From positions 1 through 49,656 of IMG/VR virus record IMGVR_UViG_3300022933_000008: DNA of 49,656 bases; one strand, given 5' to 3'. Positions 3,071-46,628 of this stretch are shown one piece after another (the first letter of the stretch is position 1; the number at the start of each line of letters is the position of its first letter). The DNA comes from a virus. Position numbers and translations under genes: made by a program. Under the pieces are notes generated by a model that did not search any database, was not told the origin of the DNA, and worked only from the letters and a program-made list of their open reading frames with translations.

Positions 3071-3870
3071 TAGCCCAAACACTTATGGACGCGCTCGAAA
3101 AGGAGGGCGATCCGATTCGGTACAAGACACGCTCCTATATAGGGGCGTCAATTATTGGTAACGACTGCACCGCTTACCTACACCTATCCATGCGTGGCTT
3201 TCCAGAGAACACACCCCCGCCAAAACTCTTGCGCATATTTAATGTAGGACACGCCCTTGAAGACATGGTCGTGGCCGACCTAAAGAAGAACGGCGGCTAT
3301 GGTGTGAGTGAGGTGGATGAATTAACGGGCGACCAATACGAGTACACAGCGTTAGGTGATCATGTCGTGTGCCATCTGGACGGGATCATTTATGTGGATG
3401 AGGAGCCGTGCGTGTTGGAAATCAAGACGATGAACAAGAGTAAGTTCAATGCGTTTGAGAAGAAGGGGGTAAAGGTTTCTCATCCGAATTACTTTGCGCA
3501 GTGCATGTTGGCTATGCACTTGAGCAAGTTGGAGAAGTCTTACCTACTCGCGATCTGTAAGGATGATTGTCGATATCATGTACAGATTATTGAGTACGAT
3601 GAGTTTGAGGTGGCGGCGCTGCGTCAGAAAATTTCCCAAGCCGTTTCGGAGCCAGAGAGGATTGCGCAGACGGATTCAGATTGGCGCTGCCGAGGATGCT
3701 TTAAGCGCACTTCATGCTGGCACCCAAGCGAGATCAAGCCCAAGCCAAGTTGTAACCTATGTGAGCATGGTATGCCTGACATGTACGGTCAGAGTAAGCA
3801 GTGGTACTGCCACCATCACGACCGGCCCGCTAAGGAGCCGTGTGATGAGTTTAAGTTATTTGTACTTTGA
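3067..3870 (+). CDS. PD-(D/E)XK exonuclease with C-terminal cysteine clusters
   Basis: A nuclease of the lambda-exonuclease/YqaJ/Cas4 superfamily. The catalytic core is D105, E118 and K120 (HLDG, then VLEIKT), followed by a Q-containing helix (FAQCMLAMHL) as in that fold. The C-terminal third holds cysteines at 208, 211 and 217 and again at 229, 232, 248 and 259, with a C-H-H-H run, suggesting bound zinc or an iron-sulphur cluster. With the upstream Sak4-like ATPase and SSB-like protein it completes a recombination set: resect, coat, anneal. The start is uncertain. TTG 3067 has GGGGT about 8 nt upstream and overlaps the previous stop, GTG 3052 has a distant site, and ATG 3085 has none. Its last codons and stop lie in a 15-bp repeat shared with the convergent giant gene. 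Confidence 0.82.
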   Translation: MIAQTLMDALEKEGDPIRYKTRSYIGASIIGNDCTAYLHLSMRGFPENTPPPKLLRIFNVGHALEDMVVADLKKNGGYGVSEVDELTGDQYEYTALGDHVVCHLDGIIYVDEEPCVLEIKTMNKSKFNAFEKKGVKVSHPNYFAQCMLAMHLSKLEKSYLLAICKDDCRYHVQIIEYDEFEVAALRQKISQAVSEPERIAQTDSDWRCRGCFKRTSCWHPSEIKPKPSCNLCEHGMPDMYGQSKQWYCHHHDRPAKEPCDEFKLFVL

Positions 3871-6800
3871 TCCGCCGTACTTTGATCCGCCGTACTTTGA
3901 TCCGCTATAGCGTCCGCTACCGGATGATTTCTCGCCACCCATTAGATCAACCATACTTTCCTTAACTGCTTTCAAGCCTCCCACGACGGGGATGCGTTGA
4001 ACAACTTCACGAGCGGCTTGCCGACCCTTACCGTTGGGGTCTCCCTCTTCACCCCATAGTAAGTTACCCAAACCACTGGCCGTGTTCCACGCGCCAATGG
4101 TTTGTCCGAATGTTGGGCCAAGCACATTACTCATTGCGCGGGAGTAGCCGTACATACCATTGTCCGCTTGCTCTACGACATTATGCAGGAGTTCGAGGTA
4201 GAGACCGAAGCCACCCATGTGCATCATGCCTTCGATATACCATCCGGCGAAGTCGTTGGGATCGCCATGAAGGTCTGGGTTGTAGCCAACGGCTTCAAGC
4301 CAAGAGATGTTCTTGCCGTGTCGATCACGGATAACCCCTTGCTCCTCGTCGCCACGCATCTGTATTGCGTCCTTAGCGGATATAGCCATAGCACCACCGG
4401 CTGGCCCCATTACCGCGAGCATAGCGAGGGGTTTATAAGAGTGCAGGTTCTTCGGGTCTTTAACAATCTCCATGATGCTGTCTTTACTCAAGCGGGCCAT
4501 CATCATGGGGAATGATTTCAACTGCCAGACCATCGCACCCGCTGGGGTCTGCGCCCATAGCGGTATGTCGTTTGTGTTGGGAGCGAAGATCGTATCGTTA
4601 GCGAACTTGATAAGCGCGTCGCGCATCTGATCGCTCTGTAGAACCAGTTCAGGATCGATGGCTTCGTCATACTGCATGCCGATATGATTTCGGTTTTTGA
4701 CTAGGCTCTCGATAGATGGAGAGTTTGGTCGAGCGTAATTGCCAAGACCATATTTCTCCAGCACCCGTTTGGCCTTCCTTCCTTGTCGGCTATTTAAGCC
4801 ATGCTTTGCGATACGCCGCTGTTCAGTCTTAAACCACTCGAAGCCAATGATGCCTGCCATTTCACGCATGGAGTCTGTCCACGGTGATAGCATGGTTGCG
4901 TTGAAGAAGGCGGTTGTGAGTTTGGAAGCATCCGCCCCGTACAGCCCGACAAGCCTGTTGTGTACATAGTTCTCGATTGACAGGCCAGAGTCGCGCATCA
5001 TTGCCCTGTAGTCAGGGTCAGATGCGTACTTGTGCATACCGCGAAGCCACGCGCCAACTTCACCAGAGCGTAGTAAGGGAATGAATGGGTCAGTTAATGA
5101 TGTAACCGTGGTGAAACTCAGCATCGTTAGCGCATTCATGTTGCGCATAAACTTAGAGATGGGGCGCATCGCTGTATGGAAATGTGAATCTCCTACAGGC
5201 TTACGCATCGCTGCCATGAGAAGGTCTTCCATGACTTTCACTTCACTCGGCGCTACTTGACCCCTTTTTGTGTGGCTCTCTAAGCCAGCAACAATGGCTT
5301 CGGCCCGGCGATCCCACTGAAACTGCTTCTTACTATCGAGCGGGAAACTAAATAGTTCTGGATTTTGCAGAATCCGATTTGCTTCGGCGATGCCTCCACG
5401 ATTCTTAATGGCGTCGATTACATCATCGATCATTTGAGTGGCAGCAAATTCGTTCTCCTTGAACGGAGCAGGAATCTGATCGGTGCGTTGCATGGTTTCC
5501 ACCTTGCCATCTACGACGCCTCTGATCGTGCGGCGTATTTCCCGTGGCTTCAACAATGCCTTAACGGCGGCCTCCTTACCTTCCTCAATGACGCGCATGT
5601 ACATAAGCGCGCCATGATTGCCTTGACCAAATCGTTTTGCAAACTCGATCTTTCTAGTGGAGCCATCCAAATACTTGGCAAGGATCGCGCCAATATCATT
5701 TTCAAGAAACTCACCAAGAGCAAACAAATCTTGCCGAAACTCTGGGCGATGCAGTTTAATCATTCGTTGATAGTCAACATGATCTAATCCCGCATCATTC
5801 TTGGTTGCGTATTGCGGGGGTATATGAGTGCCATCGTCATCGATGATATTCCTTACCATCTTCTTCGCAATTCTTCGGGCGTCCTCTATGCCGAGAGTAT
5901 CGTGACGTTCTCTTGCCTCACGTATAAAGTAATCGGAAAGTTTTTCTACGGCCCGCGCTTGATTCCTTTGTAGTGATTCCTTAGACCATATCTGAGGAAC
6001 ATAGTTTTCCTTAATGCCTGAGTGCATGATCCCGTAGTGAATCATGGCATCCTTTTCATTATTAAAAGTTTCCCTGATTCTCTGGTACGCGCGTCGTTCA
6101 GCGGCGTTAGCCAATGCTCGACCTTCTCCAGTACGAAGCGCCATGATGACTCTTAGTTCTGATGGCGTTGGCTTGGAGCGGGCACGTACATCTATTGATC
6201 GCTTGAACCAGCGTTGCACTGCATTGCCGGTGCCGGGCAGGGCATTGAGTGCGCGTACGATTGGCATGATCTTGCGGCCAATCTCGTTATCGACGCGCTC
6301 GAAGATGCCTGTGCCATTCTCTTTCTGAAGGAAGTCAGAAATAAAATTGTCGCCATATTTGCGTAAGCGGGCGGAGCCTTTACGTAGGAAATAGACCGGG
6401 CCTTTGCGGAAGCCTTCGGCAATATCTTCTGGCGATGGGCCTCCCCTGCCTCTTATTGAATCAACGAACCGGCCAACTGTACCATCTGAACTAGCCACGG
6501 TATGGGAAACACCTACTGTTGATCCGTCTCCTCCCTCTAAAATGTCACGGACTATCGGGGTGACAATCGTTTCGTTAGTTGGGTTCGGATTTAACTCAAG
6601 AACTTCTTCTTCCGTGAAGTATGGGTCATTAAGTTTCTTCGCCTTCTTAGTATCGAAGATGACGTACTCTGTATGGTTATCTCTCAAGCCACCAACTGAA
6701 CGATGCTCTCCCGTGAAACTTATGCCATCGTAGCCCATGTCAGAGAGAATCTTGTTTACTCGCACTTTTGCAGTGGCTTCGTTTGCGTTGTCTCCATTCG

Positions 6801-9800
6801 CTAGAGTTCGCCACATTGCTTTGTATAATTCGCGTCCGCGATCTACTCCTTCCCTGCCAGCCACTGCGAGAATATTTCCAGTTGCGGACATGGATATAGC
6901 ATCTCCATCCTTTGCAACACTGTTCATGAACTCAGAGATTAGCCAATTTGAGGGGTCGTTCTGCGCGCTTCTAGTGAAGTCTGCATATCGATTGCAAGAA
7001 CATGCGATTGGGGCAACCTGATCATAGTTGCGCCCGGTAACTTTTCTTAATTGGCTTGCTATACGTCCTTCAATCTCGAAGAGTTCATCTAAACCAGCAT
7101 CAGTTAGCGAGTACCAGTCGCCTTTTACTTTCGCTTCAGCAATATCTTCGCGAATAGAGGATAGGTTGGAAGCCAATGATTCCGCTTCATTTACCTTTTC
7201 AAATGGGGCTTCAGCATCGTTAAGGTGCTGTACGACAATGTCTTCAAGCGTTTTCTGATAGGGCTTGGAATGGGTAGACGCATAAACACCGCTACCAAAC
7301 TCACCTAATTCTGGGAGGAGGGCGGCTTCACCGTTGGAGCGCACAAAGTAAGGAGTTACCCCTGACGCGGTTCGCGCCATGCCTGTGCTCACGAAAGCGG
7401 CAAGGTTGCTTTTCTCTCGCGGAGTCATACCGTCGAGCAGGTCTTTCGCGTATTGGCCAGCGTATTCCTGAGATACAGAGGCGTCCTCCTTTAGGCGGAG
7501 AGATAGGTCTCTCGCCCGGACACCCCGACTCGATCCCATCGGATCAGCGTGATCAGATATTCTTGGGTGAGTTCCATACATACTTTCAAGGGAACTGATG
7601 CCATCCATCATGTATGCGACACTGGAGTTCAGGCTATCCATAGCCGATGTAACGTCTGCCAATGATTCATCTCTCACACCACGTAATGGCGCGTTCCCTT
7701 CTTTGGCGTAACTTGACCAGCGTTGGAGAAATTCTGCGTCGTCTTTGAAGTTGGTCTTGATTGCCGAAAGTTCTTCCGGTGTTAACAGGCCAGCACGCAT
7801 GGCGAATCTTGCCAACTGTACTGCGTCCTTTTCTTTAACCGCAGTGCGGACTTGATTACGGAATGACCGAAACTCCTCGTTGGAAAAATCCGCAAGGGTT
7901 TTATGTGGGGTATCTTGCAATGGCTTGCCAGCCAACTTTGCAATGTGCTCATTGGTAATCGGAGATGCCGGGTCTGTAAGCCCAGCGATATTGAAGATGC
8001 GATAAGAGACGAGGCGGGCATCTGCCGTTTTTGTTGGAGTCCGCTCTGTAATTCGAGAAAGCGTCTCTTGGATGTGGGGTCTAGCCAAAGAGGGGATGCC
8101 ATCTACGGGGGCTGTAGATGCAGAATCAGTAGTTTCACGACCTGCTATATCTACCTCAATCCTAGATACAGTTGGCTTGTCTTGGGTTCTCTTTACCTTA
8201 TTATTCGCCCTGCGAATTATCTCAGATTTGATTTGAGCGATCTCCATTCGCTCCGCTTTAGTCTTACCCGCGCCGAGTTCAGCGAGCCTGCGGATCATTT
8301 CTGGTTTCTGTGTATTGAAAAGTTCCTGTGGGATATTGACACCCTCTGCCGGTGGCTTGCCCTGTACTATACGAATCTCAATCTCTCTTGCCGCATCCTT
8401 GGCTTTGATGGGGTCGGATGTTCTGTTGGAAATAATGTCGAACAACTGATCGTTGTCCAGTTCTTTCGTGGTGTAGCCACCAGTGACTCCGTATTTTTCT
8501 TTGTTCTTCCTTAATACAGCGCCCTTCTTTTTCCCCGCTCGATTGGCTTTCTCTTTGTTAGCGGAACGATCTGTGCGTTCCCACTGAAGCCCGGTCACTT
8601 CATCACGACGTAAGCCTTGTCGGAATTGTGTGGGGATTAAGTCAATCCACCCTTTGTTTGAGGTTATACCAGCGGCTGACTGCCATCTTTGAGCGAAGAC
8701 GTACCCTAATTCTCGAAGTACATTCTCTGTGTCCGGCATATTAAATATGGCTTCAATAGCGAGACGCTCATCATCCCCCATAAATGCGGTATCGTCAGCG
8801 TCCTGCTTTGCAAGCCATCTATCCGCTTCATCCATATCAACATCTAATTTCTCGCCGCTGGCTGGATTGATTGCGTTGCCTTCCTCGTCTAGCATTATCC
8901 TGTTAGCCGCGTCAGACAAGTCTTGGACGTGCCGCCCAAAGGATTCGTAATCGACAACCTCTCCCTCATCATCGACAATATCGCCAAGGTCATCAAAGTC
9001 GAGTTCAGACCGTTCCCTGTCAACTAGAATTCTGCCGTTATCTCCCCACTGACCTTCTTTCCAGTGCGCGGTTTCGTCGAAGGGAACGACGCGCCCATCT
9101 GATCCCCATTGGCTTACCGTCTTAACTGTTGAAAGTTCGCCATCGGTTATCTCGAAAATCTTTGTGGCTAACGAGATTAGGGATCGCCTCATCGGTCGGC
9201 CAAGTTGTTTTTCGTGGCTTGAGTCGAGCAGGTTGGAGGCAAGATTACGCGCGGAAATAGATAGCCGATCTATATCGGTAGAATTTTTCGCGTCCTCTAG
9301 TTCTCTTGAGATTGTGTCAAACCCACCCATTCGCGCGAGCAATTTGTTGGCGTGACCGACGGTTAATCGATTGAATTTATATTTTTGTAAATCCTTTGCG
9401 ATTTGAGATCGAGCCGTATCAAGCATGCGGGACTTGAATTCATCAGGGAGAACTCGATCAAGAATTTCTCTGACAGCGGGGTCGATGTAATCTCTTGCTG
9501 CCGGGTCGGCTTTCATCGCATCGCCACGTATTAGCCCTGCGATCTCACCTAACTGTTTAACGGTTTGTTTCGTATTGAGCATCACAGTCTTCCACCATTT
9601 CTCATCAAGCGCGCCGGGCATGCGTCGAAGTAAGAAAGCGGTGGCGTTTTCTGCGAAATATTCATTTGGGCTGTTTGCAATATTGCCGGGAGAGAAGTCG
9701 CCCATTAGTCCACTGACATCAGCGTCTAACTGGTCGCCAGTTCTACCCCTTATTGCGTTTTCCCAGTAGTAAAGACGTTCGTTATCGGTTAAGACATTAG

Positions 9801-12800
9801 CGTATGCCCAGTGCATGATTTCGTGGGTAGTGATATGAAGGGCAGGCTTATAACCCCCCGTCAACCCCCTGTTAGTTATTGAAATATTAGCGGGAGGCGC
9901 CTTAGCAGTGAATCCGCCTTCATTCTCTGGGTTGTTATCTCTATATTTATCTCGATTAGATTCGATGCCAAGTAAGTCTGGTTTTTCTTTTAGTCTCGGA
10001 TAATTATCAGTTGTTAAATCCGCAAACGAAGGAGCAATATCATTAGTGTCGCGCGTGAGATGTTCCATAATCTCAAGCACCGCGCTTGTAGTCTTTTGAT
10101 CAGACCAGAAAAGATTTTTGATCTGGTCGTATGACTGCTGACGTGTGGCTTCTCCGTAAATAATCCCTCCGGGGAAAGCCTTATGTCTTATCCGGTAAAG
10201 ATTCGACAAGGCGAGAATGTGTTGTTTGTAATCCCCCTTAACCCACTCCCTTCCTTTAAGTCTTGGAGCGACCGCTGGCCAACTAACCTCCAATCTAGTG
10301 AGCATTTCTTCAATAGTGCGGACATCAATATGGGCTGTTGGGGTAATGCTCTTATAGAAGCGAGCCAAGTAATTAAGTGACTGTACATCCATGTCGCCAA
10401 AATCAATTATCTCGTCTTGTACATCTCGAAAATTAACAGGCTTTAGAGGTGTGTCGGATTTAGTTGGAGAAACAAACCCGCCTACTTTATACCTATCAAT
10501 AATGTGGGCGTCTTTGGGATCATCAGGAACAAAGTCCTCTATAGCCTTCTGGCTAGTGGCTCCCTTGTATTTAATGGGAACCGTGCCGGTGATCCACTCA
10601 TTCATATCGCCCTTGGCGCCGATAATGGTTGCAGCACTAGCATTACTTTGCCCCTTACTTTCAACTCGGAAGTAAGAGGTCTGAAATCCACTGGGGTTAG
10701 ATTTTCCTTGTACTGTGGGGGTACGCCTTAGTACCGCAGTTACCCTTGCATCAGGATCGAGTTCCTTTCCAACATCTGATGAGGTCTTTCTCTTTCCCTC
10801 CGCTCGGGCTTCGCGCTTTCTTTTAAAGGCTTCCCTTATCCTTTCAACACGAGAGTCAACCTGCTCGTCAGACATATCAGCGATGCGGCGTTCTATTCGT
10901 TCGTTTGATGCGACGCTATCCTCTGGCGACTCTTTGCGTGGCGATGTGGGTAGTTTGCTGAGTGTGGCTGGAGTGACCTTACCGCCACCTATATCTGAGA
11001 TCGGCTGTTTACCCTCACCACGGGCAACCAACATCTCATCAAAGTTCTCGTCCGTCCAAGTCTTCTTAGTGATGGGGTCGTACCAAAGTTTGGCTTTCCT
11101 TTTTGACCACTTTGGAGCGGTGTATACCGTGCCATCCTTACGGCTATGCTGAATAATCTCACTGGTAATCTTCTCGCCTTTTACTGCGAGAAAGGGAACC
11201 GGATCGGATGAGCCAGTGATTTCGGCTTTGGCGCGGGCAGATGAAAAGCCTTCCGTCCCGTCGTTATTCCAATCTCGACGAACATTTGTTCGAGTAGGTC
11301 GTCGCGCTCGGCCGGGAGTGATGCCAATGCCGGTGGCGATGCGGCCAGATGAGGAGCCGGGGGTTCCTTTGGTGGCTACCCTTACCTGTGCCTGTTCGAT
11401 CTCATCTTGGAGTATTCGATTTCTAATCTTCTCGAAGATGGGGTCTTGGAGTATGCCCTCACCTTTGTTCGCCTTTGCGCGACGAGAAAAATCACGCATC
11501 GCTATGATGTTAGGGACTAGATCATCAGGAACTTCCGAAAGAGGTAGTCGCGATACATCTTCAGGGATGTCAAATGTTTTGCGATAGAAGGCGCGAGTGG
11601 CTTCGATGATTCGGGTTAAGGACTCTCCCTTTGCGCCCTTAAACATGTTACGAAGTTTCTCTGACTGCTCGATGCGGGCCGCGATTGATTTGCGAACCGG
11701 GTTCTGCATTTTTCTAGGAAGTTTAGAAATCTCAGCATCAAAGTCAGGGGGTGCGGTTGTTGCAGAATCAAGTGTGTCGGTTTCCGATATTGGCTTGTAC
11801 CTTTCATCCGAAGCCAGTTTTGCTTTTAATGATTCGCCAGCCGCCTGCCAGTCGCCATCAATTTCACGATCCAGCAAGTCATCAACAGCGTCATCAATGG
11901 CTTCGTGAAGCATTGGCCGATGTTTTGGAGTGGCTGCCCAATCATCATAGTAAGCATCAGTGAATCCCAAGGCTCGGAATGACGCATCAATTTCATCAAT
12001 AAGGGTTCCTTCAAGCCCTTCAAGTGCTTCGCCTTCTTTGGATTTTTGCAACGTGGCCAGTCGATCTTCAATAGCCGCGCTTAATTCTTCCTTGCTAAGT
12101 TTGGGATCGATCCTCTCATCGGACGACTTATTTAGTTCGCGAGCGATCTTCTGTAGAGCGGCCTTACCGCCGCGAGTTACACGAAGGACGTTATAGTTTT
12201 CTACATTCCCTTCACCCCATTGGTGAATCGTGTTAGAGATGAACGGGTCTTTATCTAACGGCGCATCTTCTGGAATGGCGGGGCTTGAATCAACATCCGC
12301 GTCTGCGGGTGGAATATCAGAATCAACTGGGGCCGGATCGCCCGTGTTATCCGTCGTTGTAGGCTCCCCAATTTTGGTTTGCGCCTGTTGTTTGGAGGCT
12401 GCGGGCGATAAGGTGAGTAGCCGATCATCAATGGATTTGACGTTGTGCGCGTTAGAGTCTGCATTATTGACCGCGTCTACAAGAAGTTGCTCAAGTTCTT
12501 CTAGTTCTTCCGGTGGTAATTCCCCTGAGTTGCGTTTGGCTTCCAGCGCGCGATGAAGTCGTTTGACCTCTTGGAAGTATTCTCGCTTATTAATAAAATC
12601 TGCTGCGTCAGCGCCGTCCGCCTCTAGTGTTGTTGCGTTCTGTTGAGCGTTATGAACTTCAGCGTTGATACGGGATGGAACATCATCGTATTTAAGAGGG
12701 GCGTTTAGTTGATGGCTCGTATCGATTTTATTTGGATTAGGCTCGTGCTGTCCAAGATCGACGCGCTCATTAGCGGGCATGTTGGAGTGATCATTGGGGG

Positions 12801-13671
12801 TTATATCTCTCTTGGCGTAAGATTCAAACCATTTTGTGTTCCCCGTCTCAACGTCAACCATTGCGGCGATTTGCTCTGGCTTCCAGCCATTACGAGTTAG
12901 TCGTTCAATGGTTTTGTTTACTTGGTTTGTTGTTAATTTCGCACCAGCGGCTGCGAACAAGCCACCGAACACACCACCCGCCACTGCACCAAAGCCAGCG
13001 GCTTGGCCAACTCGTCCCATATCGACTGAATCTTGAATACCGAGTTCAACATCTGTGGCTTGGGTTCCGTACTCAAGCCCGGCTTCAATACCGCCAGAGA
13101 GAACACTCTCTCCCGCCGCTCCCTGTAAAGCGCGTTTACCTATTAGTCCAGTAGGTTTGCCAACCGCCTTTGATGCGGCATAGCCAGCGCGTGCGGCTTT
13201 AGCGCCCCAGCCAAGGGGGAGAAGGTTGGTTGGATCGGTGACTGCGGCAGTGCCCCATTCGTATAGGCCGGTTCCCCAACCCATACCGCCTTCCTCATAG
13301 AAGGATGGCATCTCGTGGTAGGCTTGGCGGAGTCGGTTGTTGGCGGAGCGGACATCCTCATCTTCAATACCAGTGGCGGTAAGGTAGCCTTGATCGCCAT
13401 TGATGGCGGAGTATGTGTTACCTAATGACCAGACCATGTCGCTGTACCAGCGATCAATGGCTTCGTCGTCATTGTTAAAGTGAACGCCGCGCGCGTTGTA
13501 GACCTTGTAGATGTCACGCAGGAGCGCGGGATTATTTCGGAAGTTCGACACATCCCCAATTGGTGAGTTCGGATCAGGGAGGTCAGGTATAACCGTGTCA
13601 GACCACTCATCCGGGGTGTATGCACCGCCCGTGAGGGTTAGGTCTTTACTTGGATCGTATTGTTTTACCAT
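3856..13671 (-). CDS. Giant polyvalent ejection-type protein with zincin and ART-like segments
   Basis: A 3,271-residue protein in the position of T7 gp16, last in the ejection-protein series, so probably injected with the DNA. The N-terminal ~240 residues include small-residue-rich hydrophobic stretches. A zinc metallopeptidase signature is clear: HEIMH at 1283-1287 and a downstream EYFAE at 1337-1341 that can give the third ligand. A second segment, about 2100-2345, looks like the ADP-ribosyltransferase-type domain of polyvalent proteins: GVYAST at 2128 and GYDGISFTG at 2313 followed by EYVIFD. The last ~700 residues resemble conserved virion tails (NALTMLSFTTVTSLTDPF). It ends in GGSKY repeats. 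I found no lytic transglycosylase and no single-subunit RNA polymerase motifs, although the length rivals the N4 virion polymerase. Zincin confidence is fair; ART is tentative. Confidence 0.88.
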   Translation of the reverse strand: MVKQYDPSKDLTLTGGAYTPDEWSDTVIPDLPDPNSPIGDVSNFRNNPALLRDIYKVYNARGVHFNNDDEAIDRWYSDMVWSLGNTYSAINGDQGYLTATGIEDEDVRSANNRLRQAYHEMPSFYEEGGMGWGTGLYEWGTAAVTDPTNLLPLGWGAKAARAGYAASKAVGKPTGLIGKRALQGAAGESVLSGGIEAGLEYGTQATDVELGIQDSVDMGRVGQAAGFGAVAGGVFGGLFAAAGAKLTTNQVNKTIERLTRNGWKPEQIAAMVDVETGNTKWFESYAKRDITPNDHSNMPANERVDLGQHEPNPNKIDTSHQLNAPLKYDDVPSRINAEVHNAQQNATTLEADGADAADFINKREYFQEVKRLHRALEAKRNSGELPPEELEELEQLLVDAVNNADSNAHNVKSIDDRLLTLSPAASKQQAQTKIGEPTTTDNTGDPAPVDSDIPPADADVDSSPAIPEDAPLDKDPFISNTIHQWGEGNVENYNVLRVTRGGKAALQKIARELNKSSDERIDPKLSKEELSAAIEDRLATLQKSKEGEALEGLEGTLIDEIDASFRALGFTDAYYDDWAATPKHRPMLHEAIDDAVDDLLDREIDGDWQAAGESLKAKLASDERYKPISETDTLDSATTAPPDFDAEISKLPRKMQNPVRKSIAARIEQSEKLRNMFKGAKGESLTRIIEATRAFYRKTFDIPEDVSRLPLSEVPDDLVPNIIAMRDFSRRAKANKGEGILQDPIFEKIRNRILQDEIEQAQVRVATKGTPGSSSGRIATGIGITPGRARRPTRTNVRRDWNNDGTEGFSSARAKAEITGSSDPVPFLAVKGEKITSEIIQHSRKDGTVYTAPKWSKRKAKLWYDPITKKTWTDENFDEMLVARGEGKQPISDIGGGKVTPATLSKLPTSPRKESPEDSVASNERIERRIADMSDEQVDSRVERIREAFKRKREARAEGKRKTSSDVGKELDPDARVTAVLRRTPTVQGKSNPSGFQTSYFRVESKGQSNASAATIIGAKGDMNEWITGTVPIKYKGATSQKAIEDFVPDDPKDAHIIDRYKVGGFVSPTKSDTPLKPVNFRDVQDEIIDFGDMDVQSLNYLARFYKSITPTAHIDVRTIEEMLTRLEVSWPAVAPRLKGREWVKGDYKQHILALSNLYRIRHKAFPGGIIYGEATRQQSYDQIKNLFWSDQKTTSAVLEIMEHLTRDTNDIAPSFADLTTDNYPRLKEKPDLLGIESNRDKYRDNNPENEGGFTAKAPPANISITNRGLTGGYKPALHITTHEIMHWAYANVLTDNERLYYWENAIRGRTGDQLDADVSGLMGDFSPGNIANSPNEYFAENATAFLLRRMPGALDEKWWKTVMLNTKQTVKQLGEIAGLIRGDAMKADPAARDYIDPAVREILDRVLPDEFKSRMLDTARSQIAKDLQKYKFNRLTVGHANKLLARMGGFDTISRELEDAKNSTDIDRLSISARNLASNLLDSSHEKQLGRPMRRSLISLATKIFEITDGELSTVKTVSQWGSDGRVVPFDETAHWKEGQWGDNGRILVDRERSELDFDDLGDIVDDEGEVVDYESFGRHVQDLSDAANRIMLDEEGNAINPASGEKLDVDMDEADRWLAKQDADDTAFMGDDERLAIEAIFNMPDTENVLRELGYVFAQRWQSAAGITSNKGWIDLIPTQFRQGLRRDEVTGLQWERTDRSANKEKANRAGKKKGAVLRKNKEKYGVTGGYTTKELDNDQLFDIISNRTSDPIKAKDAAREIEIRIVQGKPPAEGVNIPQELFNTQKPEMIRRLAELGAGKTKAERMEIAQIKSEIIRRANNKVKRTQDKPTVSRIEVDIAGRETTDSASTAPVDGIPSLARPHIQETLSRITERTPTKTADARLVSYRIFNIAGLTDPASPITNEHIAKLAGKPLQDTPHKTLADFSNEEFRSFRNQVRTAVKEKDAVQLARFAMRAGLLTPEELSAIKTNFKDDAEFLQRWSSYAKEGNAPLRGVRDESLADVTSAMDSLNSSVAYMMDGISSLESMYGTHPRISDHADPMGSSRGVRARDLSLRLKEDASVSQEYAGQYAKDLLDGMTPREKSNLAAFVSTGMARTASGVTPYFVRSNGEAALLPELGEFGSGVYASTHSKPYQKTLEDIVVQHLNDAEAPFEKVNEAESLASNLSSIREDIAEAKVKGDWYSLTDAGLDELFEIEGRIASQLRKVTGRNYDQVAPIACSCNRYADFTRSAQNDPSNWLISEFMNSVAKDGDAISMSATGNILAVAGREGVDRGRELYKAMWRTLANGDNANEATAKVRVNKILSDMGYDGISFTGEHRSVGGLRDNHTEYVIFDTKKAKKLNDPYFTEEEVLELNPNPTNETIVTPIVRDILEGGDGSTVGVSHTVASSDGTVGRFVDSIRGRGGPSPEDIAEGFRKGPVYFLRKGSARLRKYGDNFISDFLQKENGTGIFERVDNEIGRKIMPIVRALNALPGTGNAVQRWFKRSIDVRARSKPTPSELRVIMALRTGEGRALANAAERRAYQRIRETFNNEKDAMIHYGIMHSGIKENYVPQIWSKESLQRNQARAVEKLSDYFIREARERHDTLGIEDARRIAKKMVRNIIDDDGTHIPPQYATKNDAGLDHVDYQRMIKLHRPEFRQDLFALGEFLENDIGAILAKYLDGSTRKIEFAKRFGQGNHGALMYMRVIEEGKEAAVKALLKPREIRRTIRGVVDGKVETMQRTDQIPAPFKENEFAATQMIDDVIDAIKNRGGIAEANRILQNPELFSFPLDSKKQFQWDRRAEAIVAGLESHTKRGQVAPSEVKVMEDLLMAAMRKPVGDSHFHTAMRPISKFMRNMNALTMLSFTTVTSLTDPFIPLLRSGEVGAWLRGMHKYASDPDYRAMMRDSGLSIENYVHNRLVGLYGADASKLTTAFFNATMLSPWTDSMREMAGIIGFEWFKTEQRRIAKHGLNSRQGRKAKRVLEKYGLGNYARPNSPSIESLVKNRNHIGMQYDEAIDPELVLQSDQMRDALIKFANDTIFAPNTNDIPLWAQTPAGAMVWQLKSFPMMMARLSKDSIMEIVKDPKNLHSYKPLAMLAVMGPAGGAMAISAKDAIQMRGDEEQGVIRDRHGKNISWLEAVGYNPDLHGDPNDFAGWYIEGMMHMGGFGLYLELLHNVVEQADNGMYGYSRAMSNVLGPTFGQTIGAWNTASGLGNLLWGEEGDPNGKGRQAAREVVQRIPVVGGLKAVKESMVDLMGGEKSSGSGRYSGSKYGGSKYGGSKYK
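3862..3906. repeat. Three tandem 15-bp repeats spanning two convergent stop codons
   Basis: The unit GTACTTTGATCCGCC occurs three times head to tail, the last copy with a changed final base. On the minus strand it encodes the GGSKY repeats that end the giant protein. On the plus strand the first copy supplies the last two codons and TGA stop of the exonuclease. The two genes overlap tail to tail by 15 nt here. No hairpin terminator is visible between them. Confidence 0.9.
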
Positions 13672-21620: not shown

Positions 21621-23126
21621 TTACCTCATTTTTACGATGAAGCCAACGATTCGCACCAACCCCTTCGATTTGGCTGTAATGCGAAGTCGTAAGCCTCGGA
21701 ATCTGGCGTTAAACTGTCGATGATATTGCTTGGATAATGGCACGCCAATGTATCTGTTGTCGTCCGTGTCACCACTGATCTCCATTACCCAAGATGCGAG
21801 TTGCTTGTTCTCTTCATTCATGGCCTCGACTTTTATCTCTCCGGGGCCGGATGCGATCAGAGTCAGGCTTTGTGATTCTTTCGTCCCCTCCAAATCCTTT
21901 AGCCATAGGATTGGGGTCGTAGCAGTCATCTCCGGGGCCACGGACTCGGCTTTTATCTCCTCTGGTTTGTCCACGTTGAACGCACCACCTCCTGTCCCAA
22001 CAACGAGTTGCCCCCCGTAAAAGGCTCCGCATTTGGCGTTTAGGTAGGTTCCAGTGCTCCACTTGATTCGTCCCTCCTCTGATTGGGTGTTGAGGTTCAA
22101 GGTCAGGCGCTGAGTTGTCATGCCGCCGGAAATGGGGAAATAGATGTGGTACTGCTTATTATCTCGGTCAAAGACCGCGCTGACTGTTTCAGGATCGTTT
22201 ACTTGGGCGAGAAAGGATCGGTACAGGATTTCAATCTTGTCACTCAAGGACTGACTCATGAGTAGGATGCCGTTATCTTCTGAGCGATGGACGGAATGGA
22301 CACCGGAGCGAGAGCAATACAGGAGGTCTGATCCTGCGGACTGGATCGTGTTGTGGGAGATACAGCCAATGTTGATGGAAGCCCGGTTGTCGAGAAGCCA
22401 TTTGGCTATGTCGGGATCAATGTCGTATATAAAGGTACGGTCTTCAGTGAAGATCGCCAGTTTTGTTTGCTCGAACGGAGCGATGCCTGTGATACGGCCA
22501 GCGGAACCGACGATGTTTGCGATGCTGATAGTGCCAGCGCGTAGGGCATCGGTTGAATCAATGGCTTCATCATCAGGCCAGACTTCGTGATTGTCTACGC
22601 GGGACATATAAACCTGTTGCTCTTTACCGGCCACACCAGCGGCTACCATGCGCCGTTGTACTGCGCTAAAGTAGGTGGGGCGCATGATCTCATTCATGGC
22701 GAACGATTGATTTCGTCTCCATACGATGCCGTCATAGTAAAAGGATCGTTGGAGGCGTGAGGTGAAATGCACCATCCGATTAAAACTCGTGGAGGTTACT
22801 ACCGAGTTCGAGGAATAGGCTTCCTGATCCAAGCCATTATCGTTATTTAAAAAGATGGCGCCCGCGCGTTGCTCCGCCCAGACTAATTGATCCTTATCGA
22901 GAAACTGCATGTGGGTGATAGGGTAGTTGCCGATCCGATGATGGGCTGGACTTTCACGAATAATCTGACCTTGGAAATCGCAATATGCGTTTTCCAATTT
23001 GGACATGTGCAGGGTCTTAGGGGTATCAAGAGATGTTTCATCTCTTGAAGTATCCAAGCCAGAGAAGGTTGAATAAGATACCTGTCGGGTAGGGATACCA
23101 GTTGGTGAACTGGTCTTGCTTGCCAT
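21621..23126 (-). CDS. Tail tubular protein B / stabilisation-type nozzle protein
   Basis: A 501-residue beta-rich protein without catalytic motifs. Its order, directly after the tail tubular A-like gene, and its pattern of repeated blades (AIFTEDRTFIYDID, then DLLYCSRSGVHSVHRSEDNG, then VSAVFDRDNKQYHIYFPISG) match the beta-propeller nozzle proteins of short-tailed phages, such as T7 gp12 or the P22 gp10-type stabilisation proteins. The first 60 residues (GLDTSRDETSLDTPKTLHMS) resemble the start of that family. It closes the tail and contacts the host surface. T7 gp12 is longer (794 residues). Confidence 0.78.
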   Translation of the reverse strand: MASKTSSPTGIPTRQVSYSTFSGLDTSRDETSLDTPKTLHMSKLENAYCDFQGQIIRESPAHHRIGNYPITHMQFLDKDQLVWAEQRAGAIFLNNDNGLDQEAYSSNSVVTSTSFNRMVHFTSRLQRSFYYDGIVWRRNQSFAMNEIMRPTYFSAVQRRMVAAGVAGKEQQVYMSRVDNHEVWPDDEAIDSTDALRAGTISIANIVGSAGRITGIAPFEQTKLAIFTEDRTFIYDIDPDIAKWLLDNRASINIGCISHNTIQSAGSDLLYCSRSGVHSVHRSEDNGILLMSQSLSDKIEILYRSFLAQVNDPETVSAVFDRDNKQYHIYFPISGGMTTQRLTLNLNTQSEEGRIKWSTGTYLNAKCGAFYGGQLVVGTGGGAFNVDKPEEIKAESVAPEMTATTPILWLKDLEGTKESQSLTLIASGPGEIKVEAMNEENKQLASWVMEISGDTDDNRYIGVPLSKQYHRQFNARFRGLRLRITAKSKGLVRIVGFIVKMR

Positions 23127-41892: not shown

Positions 41893-42032
41893 GTCTTATA
41901 TCCGTTACAGGTTATGAAAAATTGCGCTACTGCTCGTGGAGAGGGGTACGGTAACGAGGCGTCGTCGGGAACCGGGTGGCGGGTGTGCCCCCCCGCCCCC
42001 TCGCGAAAAACGCGGGTGTGCGTCGCGTCGCG
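41893..42032. other. GC-rich intergenic stretch without a supported gene
   Basis: Together with the element that follows it, this makes a 265-nt gap (41893-42157) between the 88-residue gene and the rightward cassette. It holds runs of G and C (a C7 and a C5 near 41990) and many CG steps, richer in G+C than the genes on either side. Any promoter for the rightward cassette should lie here, but I see no confident -35/-10 pair. Confidence 0.5.
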
Positions 42033-42083
42033 CTCGTGCGCGCGCATCAGGGCAAAGCCCTGATCTCTATTGGGGAGCGAATC
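42033..42083 (+). promoter_or_regulatory. Hairpin-plus-tail element, copy 1
   Basis: A leader CTCGTGCGCGCGC is followed by a perfect 8-bp hairpin (ATCAGGGC, loop AAA, GCCCTGAT) and then CTCTATTGGGGAGCGA. It lies 74 nt before a rightward gene. Copy 2 is at 43272-43322. The leader and tail are alike between copies, whereas the stems differ in sequence but keep length and pairing. Confidence 0.7.
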
Positions 42084-42157
42084 GGCAGATCGTCGGTTCC
42101 CTGCCACTCGGTCAGGACACACCGGGATCAAGCGCATAAGGCGCAAGGAGTCATGAA

Positions 42158-42628
42158 ATGACTGCAACGACAATGACCGTCCTCACGACGAAGCCCAAAA
42201 TCATCGCAACTGGTGGCCCGAAGGGAACTCAAGAACTCAACGGCCATCCCGTGCGCTCGCTCAAAGTGGGCAAGGTCACGAAGTTCGGCGTAGCCGTGAA
42301 GGGCGACCTGCACGAAATCCGGGCTGTAGGCCCGATGATCGTCACGGTTGACCTGACCACGAAGCCACTCGTGAAGGGGCGCAAGGAGTATCGCGAAGCG
42401 AGCAAGGCTTGCACCAAGGCGGACTTGGGCAAGATCGTGAAGGCGGAGAAAGCACCGAAGGTGGAGGCCGACGACGAGGCCGTGACGTTCACGGCGAAGC
42501 CGGGCAAGAAGGCGAAGCCTTCCAAGGCCGATGTGAGCCTCATGAAGCGTCTGGACGCGATGGAGAAACTCATTGCGAAGCAATCCACCGTGATCGAGAG
42601 CCTGATCGCAGGACTTGACGAGGCATAA
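42158..42628 (+). CDS. Cassette gene between the packaging genes, hypothetical
   Basis: A 156-residue basic protein: a Thr/Lys-rich start (TTMTVLTTKPKIIATGGPKG), a compact middle (PVRSLKVGKVTKFGVAVKGD, then IRAVGPMIVTVDLTTKPLVK), a charged linker (KAEKAPKVEADDEAVTFTAK) and a C-terminal coil (SLMKRLDAMEKLIAKQSTVI). I do not recognise it. AAGGAG precedes the ATG. It stands alone on the plus strand between the probable small terminase and the terL operon, with its own hairpin element and terminator, in the manner of a moron gene. The antisense frame (42128-42736) is rejected. Confidence 0.8.
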   Translation: MTATTMTVLTTKPKIIATGGPKGTQELNGHPVRSLKVGKVTKFGVAVKGDLHEIRAVGPMIVTVDLTTKPLVKGRKEYREASKACTKADLGKIVKAEKAPKVEADDEAVTFTAKPGKKAKPSKADVSLMKRLDAMEKLIAKQSTVIESLIAGLDEA

Positions 42629-42647
42629 GCGCGAGCCTCCGCAACTT

Positions 42648-42679
42648 GGGCGGCCCCTTCGGGGGTCGCCCTTTTTTTT
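42648..42679 (+). terminator. Strong TTCG-loop terminator of cassette 1
   Basis: A 10-bp stem (GGGCGGCCCC with GGGGTCGCCC, one G-U pair) closed by TTCG, followed by eight T. It ends the cassette gene before the leftward small-terminase gene is met. Confidence 0.95.
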
Positions 42680-42756
42680 GCATGGTGCGCGCGTGGCTTG
42701 GTGGCTTGCCAAGTGGGTTTGGCACGGTTTTGGCACGGTTTTGACGACAGCGAAGG

Positions 42757-43233
42757 CTAAGTCGTTGATTTTTCGTCGTCCAGAACTCCCTTGTCAGGGG
42801 ATTCTACGACCTCACCTTCGTGAATTCCCGATGCAATCGCTTCGAGTTCATCGCGTGAGAGTTTGTTTACGTCAACATGACGATGCTCAACCGTGGTGTG
42901 CGACTGCGAGAGATCGGGAACGACCTTCGCCATCAACGTACGAAACAACGCGACTTGCTGTGGAGTCCACTTGATTTCGCCTTCGGTCGCTCGGATCGCA
43001 AGCGGGAGGATGGTTTGCACCTCATCTCGTATGTATCCGCGCAACTTAGCGACATCTCGCATCGTGAGAGGAGTGCGTTCGTGCATTTTCGCAAGGGAAG
43101 ACACCGTGACTTGCTTAACTTTCTTGCGATCAGGGTCTATTTTTGCCGGAACGATCCTGTGCTTACGCTCGATTGGTTCGCGAGTGGTGTCTTCAATCAT
43201 TTCAACGCCCTTACGTTTTTGCATGATCCGCAT
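42757..43233 (-). CDS. Probable terminase small subunit
   Basis: A 158-residue protein. The middle and end (LPLAIRATEGEIKWTPQQVA, LFRTLMAKVVPDLSQSHTTV, then SRDELEAIASGIHEG) match small terminases that share the W-T-P-Q-Q-V ... L-x-K-V-x-P-D-L-S signature. It recognises the packaging site and recruits the large subunit. AAGGG precedes the ATG at 43233; 43224 is a second choice. It is unusual that a rightward gene with its own terminator lies between it and the 41626-41892/terL pair, so the two terminase genes may not share one transcript. Confidence 0.72.
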   Translation of the reverse strand: MRIMQKRKGVEMIEDTTREPIERKHRIVPAKIDPDRKKVKQVTVSSLAKMHERTPLTMRDVAKLRGYIRDEVQTILPLAIRATEGEIKWTPQQVALFRTLMAKVVPDLSQSHTTVEHRHVDVNKLSRDELEAIASGIHEGEVVESPDKGVLDDEKSTT

Positions 43234-43271
43234 TTTCCCTTTTGCGATACAGCCTGTCGTCCTTCCTGAGC

Positions 43272-43322
43272 CTCGTGTGCGCGCCTATTTCTCCGAAGGA
43301 GAAATCTCTATTGGGGAGCGAT
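43272..43322 (+). promoter_or_regulatory. Hairpin-plus-tail element, copy 2
   Basis: Leader CTCGTGTGCGCGCCT, perfect 8-bp hairpin (ATTTCTCC, loop GAA, GGAGAAAT), then CTCTATTGGGGAGCGA. It ends 38 nt before the ATG of the next rightward gene. Compared with copy 1 the stem bases are different on both sides yet still pair. Confidence 0.7.
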
Positions 43323-43360
43323 CCAACCGGATCAAATTCAACTAGCAAACGGAGTTTTAC

Positions 43361-43600
43361 ATGAGCAAATCCGAAGTCTTACGAAAACTGATCCCAGACC
43401 TCGACGACGAAGCCATTGACCTGATCTTTGCAAATTCACATATCAAGGTCACTTCGCTTTTTCCCGATGACTGGGTTGAAGGATTGATGCCTACACCTGA
43501 AATGGAGTGGGCTTTTCTAGAAATAACCGATCCTGATCGTGATCCACAGGAGGAGGAGATCGAGCCAATTGAGGATTGGGAAAACTTGGGCGAGCACTGA
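43361..43600 (+). CDS. Cassette 2 small acidic protein, hypothetical
   Basis: A 79-residue acidic protein (DDEAIDLIFANSHIKVTSLF, then EMEWAFLEITDPDRDPQEEE). No family recognised. It has the same arrangement as the 42158-42628 unit: hairpin element, one ORF, TTCG terminator. ACGGAG lies 6 nt or so before the ATG. Small acidic early proteins of phages often bind host enzymes; that is only a possibility here. Confidence 0.8.
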   Translation: MSKSEVLRKLIPDLDDEAIDLIFANSHIKVTSLFPDDWVEGLMPTPEMEWAFLEITDPDRDPQEEEIEPIEDWENLGEH

Positions 43601-43621: not shown

Positions 43622-43645
43622 AGCCGCCCTTCGGGGCGGCTTTTT
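43622..43645 (+). terminator. TTCG-loop terminator of cassette 2
   Basis: AGCCGCCC and GGGCGGCT arms close a TTCG loop and run into TTTT. It lies 22 nt after the stop and separates cassette 2 from the following small genes. Confidence 0.92.
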
Positions 43646-44241: not shown

Positions 44242-44280
44242 GAACACCCCTTTCCCAGAGGGAAAGGGGATGTTCTTCTT
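44242..44280 (+). terminator. Long hairpin, probable terminator
   Basis: GAACACCCCTTTCCC pairs with GGGAAAGGGGaTGTTC (one bulged base) around AGA, followed by TTCTT. The stem is very stable, the T tract weak. It separates the 43662/43904 pair from the next operon. Confidence 0.7.
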
Positions 44281-46462: not shown

Positions 46463-46499
46463 CCCATAACTACTACTAAGTAGTAGTAGTAGTTATGGG
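46463..46499 (+). repeat. 15-bp perfect inverted repeat with GTA repeats
   Basis: CCCATAACTACTACT and its complement flank a 7-nt loop. The arms carry ACT/AGT triplet runs, and in the plus RNA the 3' arm gives tandem TAG words. It has no T tract of its own. It could be an RNase III site, an mRNA end stabiliser or a binding site. Confidence 0.7.
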
Positions 46500-46517
46500 A
46501 GGTTAGTCCAAGGAGAT

Positions 46518-46556: not shown

Positions 46557-46598
46557 GGGTGTTAAGTTGACACCCAAAGCAGTACCTTGTATGGTACT
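46557..46598 (+). promoter_or_regulatory. Sigma70-like promoter covered by two different palindromes
   Basis: TTGACA (46567-46572, perfect -35), a 17-bp spacer and TATGGT (46590-46595). One palindrome, GGGTGT-7-ACACCC (46557-46575), covers the -35. A second, AGTACC-6-GGTACT (46581-46598), covers the -10. This is a clear switch for the CobS-like operon, with the ATG 31 nt downstream. Confidence 0.8.
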
Positions 46599-46628
46599 AC
46601 CATTCACATATAACACTGGGGAGTGTTT

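Follow-up and report, generated by a model that had tools for sequence, protein, structure and literature searches.

A recurrent hairpin-and-linker element before early genes of CRP-810-type marine phages, with a possible role as a DNA-hairpin promoter

Results

The locus and its two copies of the element

The stretch analysed here (the window) is the 49,656-base IMG/VR virus contig IMGVR_UViG_3300022933_000008, positions 1-49,656, and is part of the genome of a CRP-810-type marine phage. Judged by terminase, the named phage nearest to it is the isolate Roseobacter phage CRP-810 (TerL identity 57%), from a family of marine phages that occurs worldwide (PMC11288001). A bifunctional primase/polymerase is among the proteins of CRP-810. 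A scan for prophages returned only one close TerL relative (53%) in bacterial genomes, on a MAG contig. The window has the family layout, that is, a leftward structural block ending in TerL and then rightward early genes, including cobS/cobT-like ones. A C-rich stretch at 41985-42002 (GGTGTGCCCCCCCGCCCCC), with counterparts between TerL and the first gene in relatives, is possibly a cos or packaging site. The two copies of the element and the units that follow them comprise these features:

42033-42045, + strand: leader of copy 1, CTCGTGCGCGCGC
42035..42046, + strand: alternating purine-pyrimidine (R/Y) tract of copy 1 (CGTGCGCGCGCA), read directly
42046..42064, + strand: hairpin H1 of copy 1, 8 bp, loop AAA, ATCAGGGC-AAA-GCCCTGAT, with arms at 42046-42053 and 42057-42064
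42065..42080, + strand: linker or tail of copy 1, CTCTATTGGGGAGCGA
42079..42099, + strand: second hairpin H2 of copy 1 (GAATCGGC-AGATC-GTCGGTTC), with G.U pairs
42158..42628, + strand: first rightward gene, unit 1, 156 aa
about 42647-42679, + strand: intrinsic terminator of unit 1, TTCG loop, from the sequence; a terminator-like stretch also in the Rfam alignment
43257..43262, + strand: TCGTCC box 5' of copy 2, conserved in relatives
from 43272, + strand: leader of copy 2, CTCGTGTGCGCGCC
43274..43284, + strand: R/Y tract of copy 2 (CGTGTGCGCGC)
43287..43305, + strand: hairpin H1 of copy 2, 8 bp, loop GAA, ATTTCTCC-GAA-GGAGAAAT, with arms at 43287-43294 and 43298-43305
43306..43321, + strand: linker or tail of copy 2, CTCTATTGGGGAGCGA, the same as in copy 1
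43320..43333, + strand: second hairpin H2 of copy 2 (GATCC-AACC-GGATC)
43361..43600, + strand: gene after copy 2, 79 aa
about 43622-43645, + strand: intrinsic terminator of unit 2, TTCG loop, read from the sequence

Direct reading of the sequence places both copies exactly where the first-pass annotation had put them and with the structure that it gave, and the TTCG-loop terminators it had described were found for both units. Its 51-nt plan holds for leader, H1 and tail, but the unit is larger, with a second hairpin, H2, which had been missed, 3' of the tail and the TCGTCC box 5' of copy 2. The 156-aa gene had no Pfam or PHROG match, relatives of the 79-aa gene were found in three close contigs only, and the 158-aa leftward ORF between the units (42757-43233), the annotation's putative small terminase gene, had no significant family match.

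The 16-nt tail occurs at two sites only in the window, even when up to 3 mismatches are allowed; shuffles gave 0.35 matches by chance, and two or more in 4 of 100. The window has 11 hairpins with at least 7 pairs and a 3-nt loop, where shuffles have 2.3, so the hairpin alone is not rare, and it is the combination of hairpin and tail, occurring twice, that is rare. A chance repeat is ruled out by the recurrence of the element in related phages. Exact tail matches in other IMG/VR records (L003-L005) came without the hairpin and were set aside as chance. Elsewhere in the window, perfect 10-bp inverted repeats with 3-nt loops stand without the linker motif at 2781-2803, 23026-23048 and 44247-44269, and at 46469-46505 a hairpin (ACTACTAC-TAA-GTAGTAGT) followed by TTATGGGAGG is perhaps a decayed relative of the element.

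Recurrence and anatomy in related phages

The first-pass annotation had taken a lack of further copies in related genomes as counting against it; many more were found, including three in the isolate CRP-810. In the TerL relatives L008-L017 (77-94% identical) the element recurs at matching sites, its stems wholly different yet still paired (ATCAGGGC, TTTGGAAC, ATTTCCAC, ATTTCCCC, ATAAGAGC, CTGCTCAGC); the orthologues of copy 1 in L008-L015 likewise have other stem letters with pairing kept. In more distant members of the family the element is shorter, e.g., GTTCC-GAA-GGAAC-TTATGGGGCGAG. A covariance model (R1) built from 16 distant copies matched CRP-810 at 57576-57648, 809-896 and 1734-1806 (E 4e-13 to 8e-9) and, on 81 family sources, gave about 29 matches below 1e-5 (seeds included) and a handful of weaker new ones. 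The same model had no match in 11 schitoviruses (N4 and 10 others), nor did a motif scan of bacterial genomes give any. The copies seen stand 5' of rightward early genes, in the same orientation as the gene after them. Loss of the stem with tail and gene kept, which the annotation had also named as counting against it, was seen in one subgroup only (L026, L034, L045, L049 and L050), where GGAACTTGATGGG and a gene stand at the equivalent site but loop and 5' arm are missing, which suggests that the element can decay or be replaced.

From 5' to 3', the element runs through an often present TCGTCC, the R/Y tract, H1, the linker and H2 to a ribosome-binding site and gene. In 36 leaders, the longest R/Y run before H1 averages 11.3, compared with 4.8 both for the genomes they come from and for leaders after shuffling, and runs of 8 or more are found in 86% of leaders against 6% of the background; since the shuffled leaders also give 4.8, the tract is not an effect of composition. 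H1 has 3-9 bp and a loop of 3 nt in 39 of 39 copies. This loop, GAA or AAA, is strand-specific, its closing pair is nearly always C-G, and the conserved GGrACTT persists even where it is unpaired. The linker consensus is TTATrGGGyGAG in most of the family (TCTATTGGGGAGC / CTCTATTGGGGAGC in the window), with a distance of 11-17 nt from the loop to the GGG, the putative start. H2 is present in all 31 folded copies (mean z -2.5), and a gene with a Shine-Dalgarno sequence always comes directly 3' of the element. About 75 nt 5' of the first-gene element, L068 and several relatives have a second hairpin (CACAATGGGGTT-AAA-AACCCCAT) with an R/Y-like leader, possibly a terminator or a related element.

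Neither copy had a match in Rfam, even at relaxed thresholds, and the element was not described in the papers searched; the CRP-810 paper mentions no promoter or hairpin. With many further copies found, the view that the element is a novel one survives.

Pairing in H1 and H2

Covariation in H1 was assessed on 27 distinct copies, anchored at the loop and without gaps. Standard pairs account for 93.3% of the inner five positions, where two-sided changes number 46 against 12.8 when shuffled and one-sided changes are absent; the covariation score is 0.872, compared with 0.186 for shuffled copies and 0.315 for the best slide. These values bear out the earlier proposal that selection acts on the pairing of H1 and not on its letters.

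When RNAfold was left to choose pairs freely, G.U pairs made up 0 of 168 in H1, 60 of 325 in the H2 region and 64 of 595 in 52 intrinsic terminators taken from these phages (15 of 260 when only the five innermost pairs are counted). The deficit in H1 gave Fisher P-values of 2e-12 and 1e-7 against H2 and terminators, respectively, and 7e-4 against the inner five pairs of terminators, values that overstate the evidence because H1 was partly found through perfect pairing and the sequences are related: many copies were first found by requiring Watson-Crick pairing, and the GC-rich apical pairs limit G.U. The loops also differ, most terminators having 4 nt and H1 always 3 nt. Because G.U pairs are absent from H1 and present in H2 and terminators, H1 appears to evolve like a DNA hairpin and H2 like an RNA one. 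The simplest reading of these sequences is that H1 is selected as DNA and H2 as RNA, in which case the transcript start would fall in the linker. The contrast of 0/168 with 11-18% G.U offers a simple way, from sequence only, to ask whether selection on a conserved hairpin acts on its DNA or its RNA form.

Two further pairings were considered and not adopted. An outer helix between TCGTCC and GGGyGA is plausible, being 86% paired, but its changes are one-sided only. Matching of stems within a genome, as expected of a trans-factor specificity, was suggestive in L009, L010, L012 and L016 and is broken by the window.

Promoter signals

No convincing consensus sigma70 promoter was seen 5' of the window copies or of the first-gene copies. 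On the cobS side of CRP-810, L059, L025, L069 and L080, a sigma70 promoter, TTGAC(T/C/G)-N17-TTATAC, has its -10 box 29-45 nt 5' of H1. At these five copies H1 is therefore transcribed, and this is the strongest counter-evidence to a DNA-hairpin promoter. In the window, a sigma70-like promoter, TTGACA-N17-TATGGT, together with an inverted repeat, GTACC...GGTAC, serves the cobS-like gene alone (46566-46625), and no copy of the element is found there. In L075, L068, L028 and CRP-810, TTTCArCAnCTTAGC is conserved 5' of the first-gene element, 17-18 nt before TCGTCC, and could be a promoter of another class, its spacing being like that of an unusual promoter. GGAACTT as an ECF-type -35 was rejected, with no matching -10 seen, as was leftward N4-like transcription, with no conserved start at the expected distance.

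Search for a polymerase

PF00940 matched none of nine family records, with N4 as positive control, so that no T7-type polymerase was found in them. A leftward ORF of 3271 aa (3856-13671, - strand), conserved across the family at about 2,870-3,550 aa, takes the place that the virion RNA polymerase has in N4, but no such enzyme was found in it by motif, by profile or by fold: virion RNA polymerase profiles gave hhalign probabilities of 2.4% or less (controls above 99%), and partial AlphaFold models (residues 1242-3271, modest confidence) had no RNA polymerase match in the PDB. Near residue 1284 the ORF carries HExxHWA, a zincin-like motif, and a stretch that reads HGT...G.G.Y may, from its motif, be an ADP-ribosyltransferase-like domain. 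Its C-terminal model weakly resembles core proteins of phage E1004, and the protein as modelled looks like an internal virion or ejection protein.

Discussion

Judged from its sequence, the element described here is a real and recurrent regulatory element of CRP-810-type phages, apparently not described before. We observed its anatomy, recurrence and covariation, the absence of G.U pairs from H1 and the R/Y tract, and tentatively favour the reading that it may be a DNA-hairpin promoter or a promoter-proximal signal for early units. Phage promoter and anti-terminator, both offered by the first-pass annotation, are kept as the leading options.

In the mechanism that we propose, phage DNA would be negatively supercoiled after entry, the R/Y tract would ease unwinding, and H1 next to it would extrude into a small DNA hairpin, with a very stable C-[G/A]AA-G triloop at its tip. 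This structure would place a polymerase, alone or together with a phage factor, on the AT-rich linker, and RNA would begin at or near the conserved GGG(y)GAG, with GGGG at 42072-42075 as the proposed start region in copy 1. The mRNA would then carry H2 as a hairpin at its 5' end.

A serious rival, not far behind, is that the element is transcribed as an RNA leader with two hairpins, because the five cobS-side copies lie downstream of consensus sigma70 promoters; we consider it possible, if on the unlikely side. Such a leader would act on host RNA polymerase (anti-termination or anti-pausing, like put of HK022) or on translation of early mRNA, with linker and hairpins read as nascent RNA. It fits the RNA-like H2, with its G.U pairs and negative mean z, the possible outer helix, the terminators that stand downstream of copies, copy b of CRP-810, which overlaps the end of gp03 inside an operon, and the precedent of put as a similar two-stem-loop element near an early promoter. 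However, an H1 free of G.U pairs and the R/Y tract speak for DNA, the outer helix changes on one side only, and the first-gene copies have no visible sigma70 promoter.

It is improbable that the element is a plain 5' untranslated region, with hairpins that only protect mRNA from decay and shared letters that are inherited and not functional contacts. The constant presence of H2 and the position directly before a gene with a Shine-Dalgarno sequence agree with such a region, but it leaves the fixed 3-nt [G/A]AA loop, the retention of unpaired GGrACTT and the R/Y tract unexplained. More improbable still is that the phage primase/polymerase reads the element as a single-stranded DNA signal in replication or priming, and that it stands before genes by happenstance: H1 behaves like DNA, its loop is strand-specific and CRP-810 has a bifunctional primase/polymerase, but the copies share the orientation of the next gene and are found before several units, with an RNA-like hairpin and the start of a gene after them. 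The end of a mobile gene cassette, also suggested at first, is scarcely credible, for although each unit is self-contained and the 156-aa unit of the window clade appears to lie on the opposite side of the 158-aa gene relative to relatives, no matching second end and no adjacent recombinase were seen in the window, and the element keeps fixed functional positions, such as that before the first gene, in diverged phages.

Comparison with known systems

In some relatives, TTATAGGG resembles the TATA-GGG start region of the familiar T7 consensus, but a conserved 17-bp upstream sequence of the T7 type is absent, as is a PF00940 polymerase from these genomes. The lambda nut site (boxB) is a small hairpin with a purine-rich loop in early units. 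The element is likewise such a hairpin in early units, but its loop has 3 nt and not 5 nt, no boxA was recognised 5' of it and no N-like protein was identified.

The put element of HK022 is about 70 nt long, with two stem-loops, directly 3' of an early promoter (PMC9378689). Compared by description, the present element is similar in its length of about 70-100 nt, its two hairpins, its place near early-unit promoters, with a sigma70 promoter upstream at the cobS-side copies only, and its occurrence in more than one copy per genome, and differs in an H1 without G.U pairs and with an R/Y tract before it. In HK022, put suppresses termination with no phage protein taking part. If the present element is a put-like RNA, it would extend anti-termination by a class found beyond the lambdoid phages.

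The best-known natural promoters that consist of a DNA hairpin itself are those of the N4 type. The early promoters of N4 are conserved inverted repeats in which the non-conserved stem bases matter for pairing only (PMC4496689). Its P1 matches the element in the order of parts, with an R/Y-rich leader, GTTGC-TTC-GCAAC (5-bp stem, 3-nt loop), TTAT, GG and then GGACA-TGT-TGTCC. An inverted repeat with a 5-7 bp stem and a 3-nt loop, by which N4 promoters are defined, is found in H1. The element also shares with them the variable stem letters, an AT-rich spacer, a putative GG start region, a hairpin at the presumed transcript start and copies 5' of early units near the genome end. In contrast, the purine at the loop centre (-11) lies on the template strand in N4 (P1 template hairpin GTTGCGAAGCAAC), whereas the loop purines of the element lie on the non-template strand, the template of a rightward transcript reading TT[C/T]. 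N4 keeps a fixed distance between loop and start; in the element this distance varies, if the GGG is taken as its start. N4 promoters depend on supercoiling and on extrusion of the hairpin. They also need the virion RNA polymerase of N4, and neither this nor another single-subunit enzyme was found in phages with the element. On these three differences, membership of the N4 class was rejected.

We regard as distinctly doubtful the broader proposition that a family of marine phages independently uses supercoil-extruded DNA hairpins as early promoters, the non-template strand being read either by host polymerase together with a phage factor or by a polymerase not yet recognised. If true, natural hairpin promoters would form two classes, that of N4 and this one. 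An N4-like element that works without a virion RNA polymerase would mean that initiation from hairpins reaches further, into phages of abundant marine bacteria, and might be the sign of a novel polymerase or factor.
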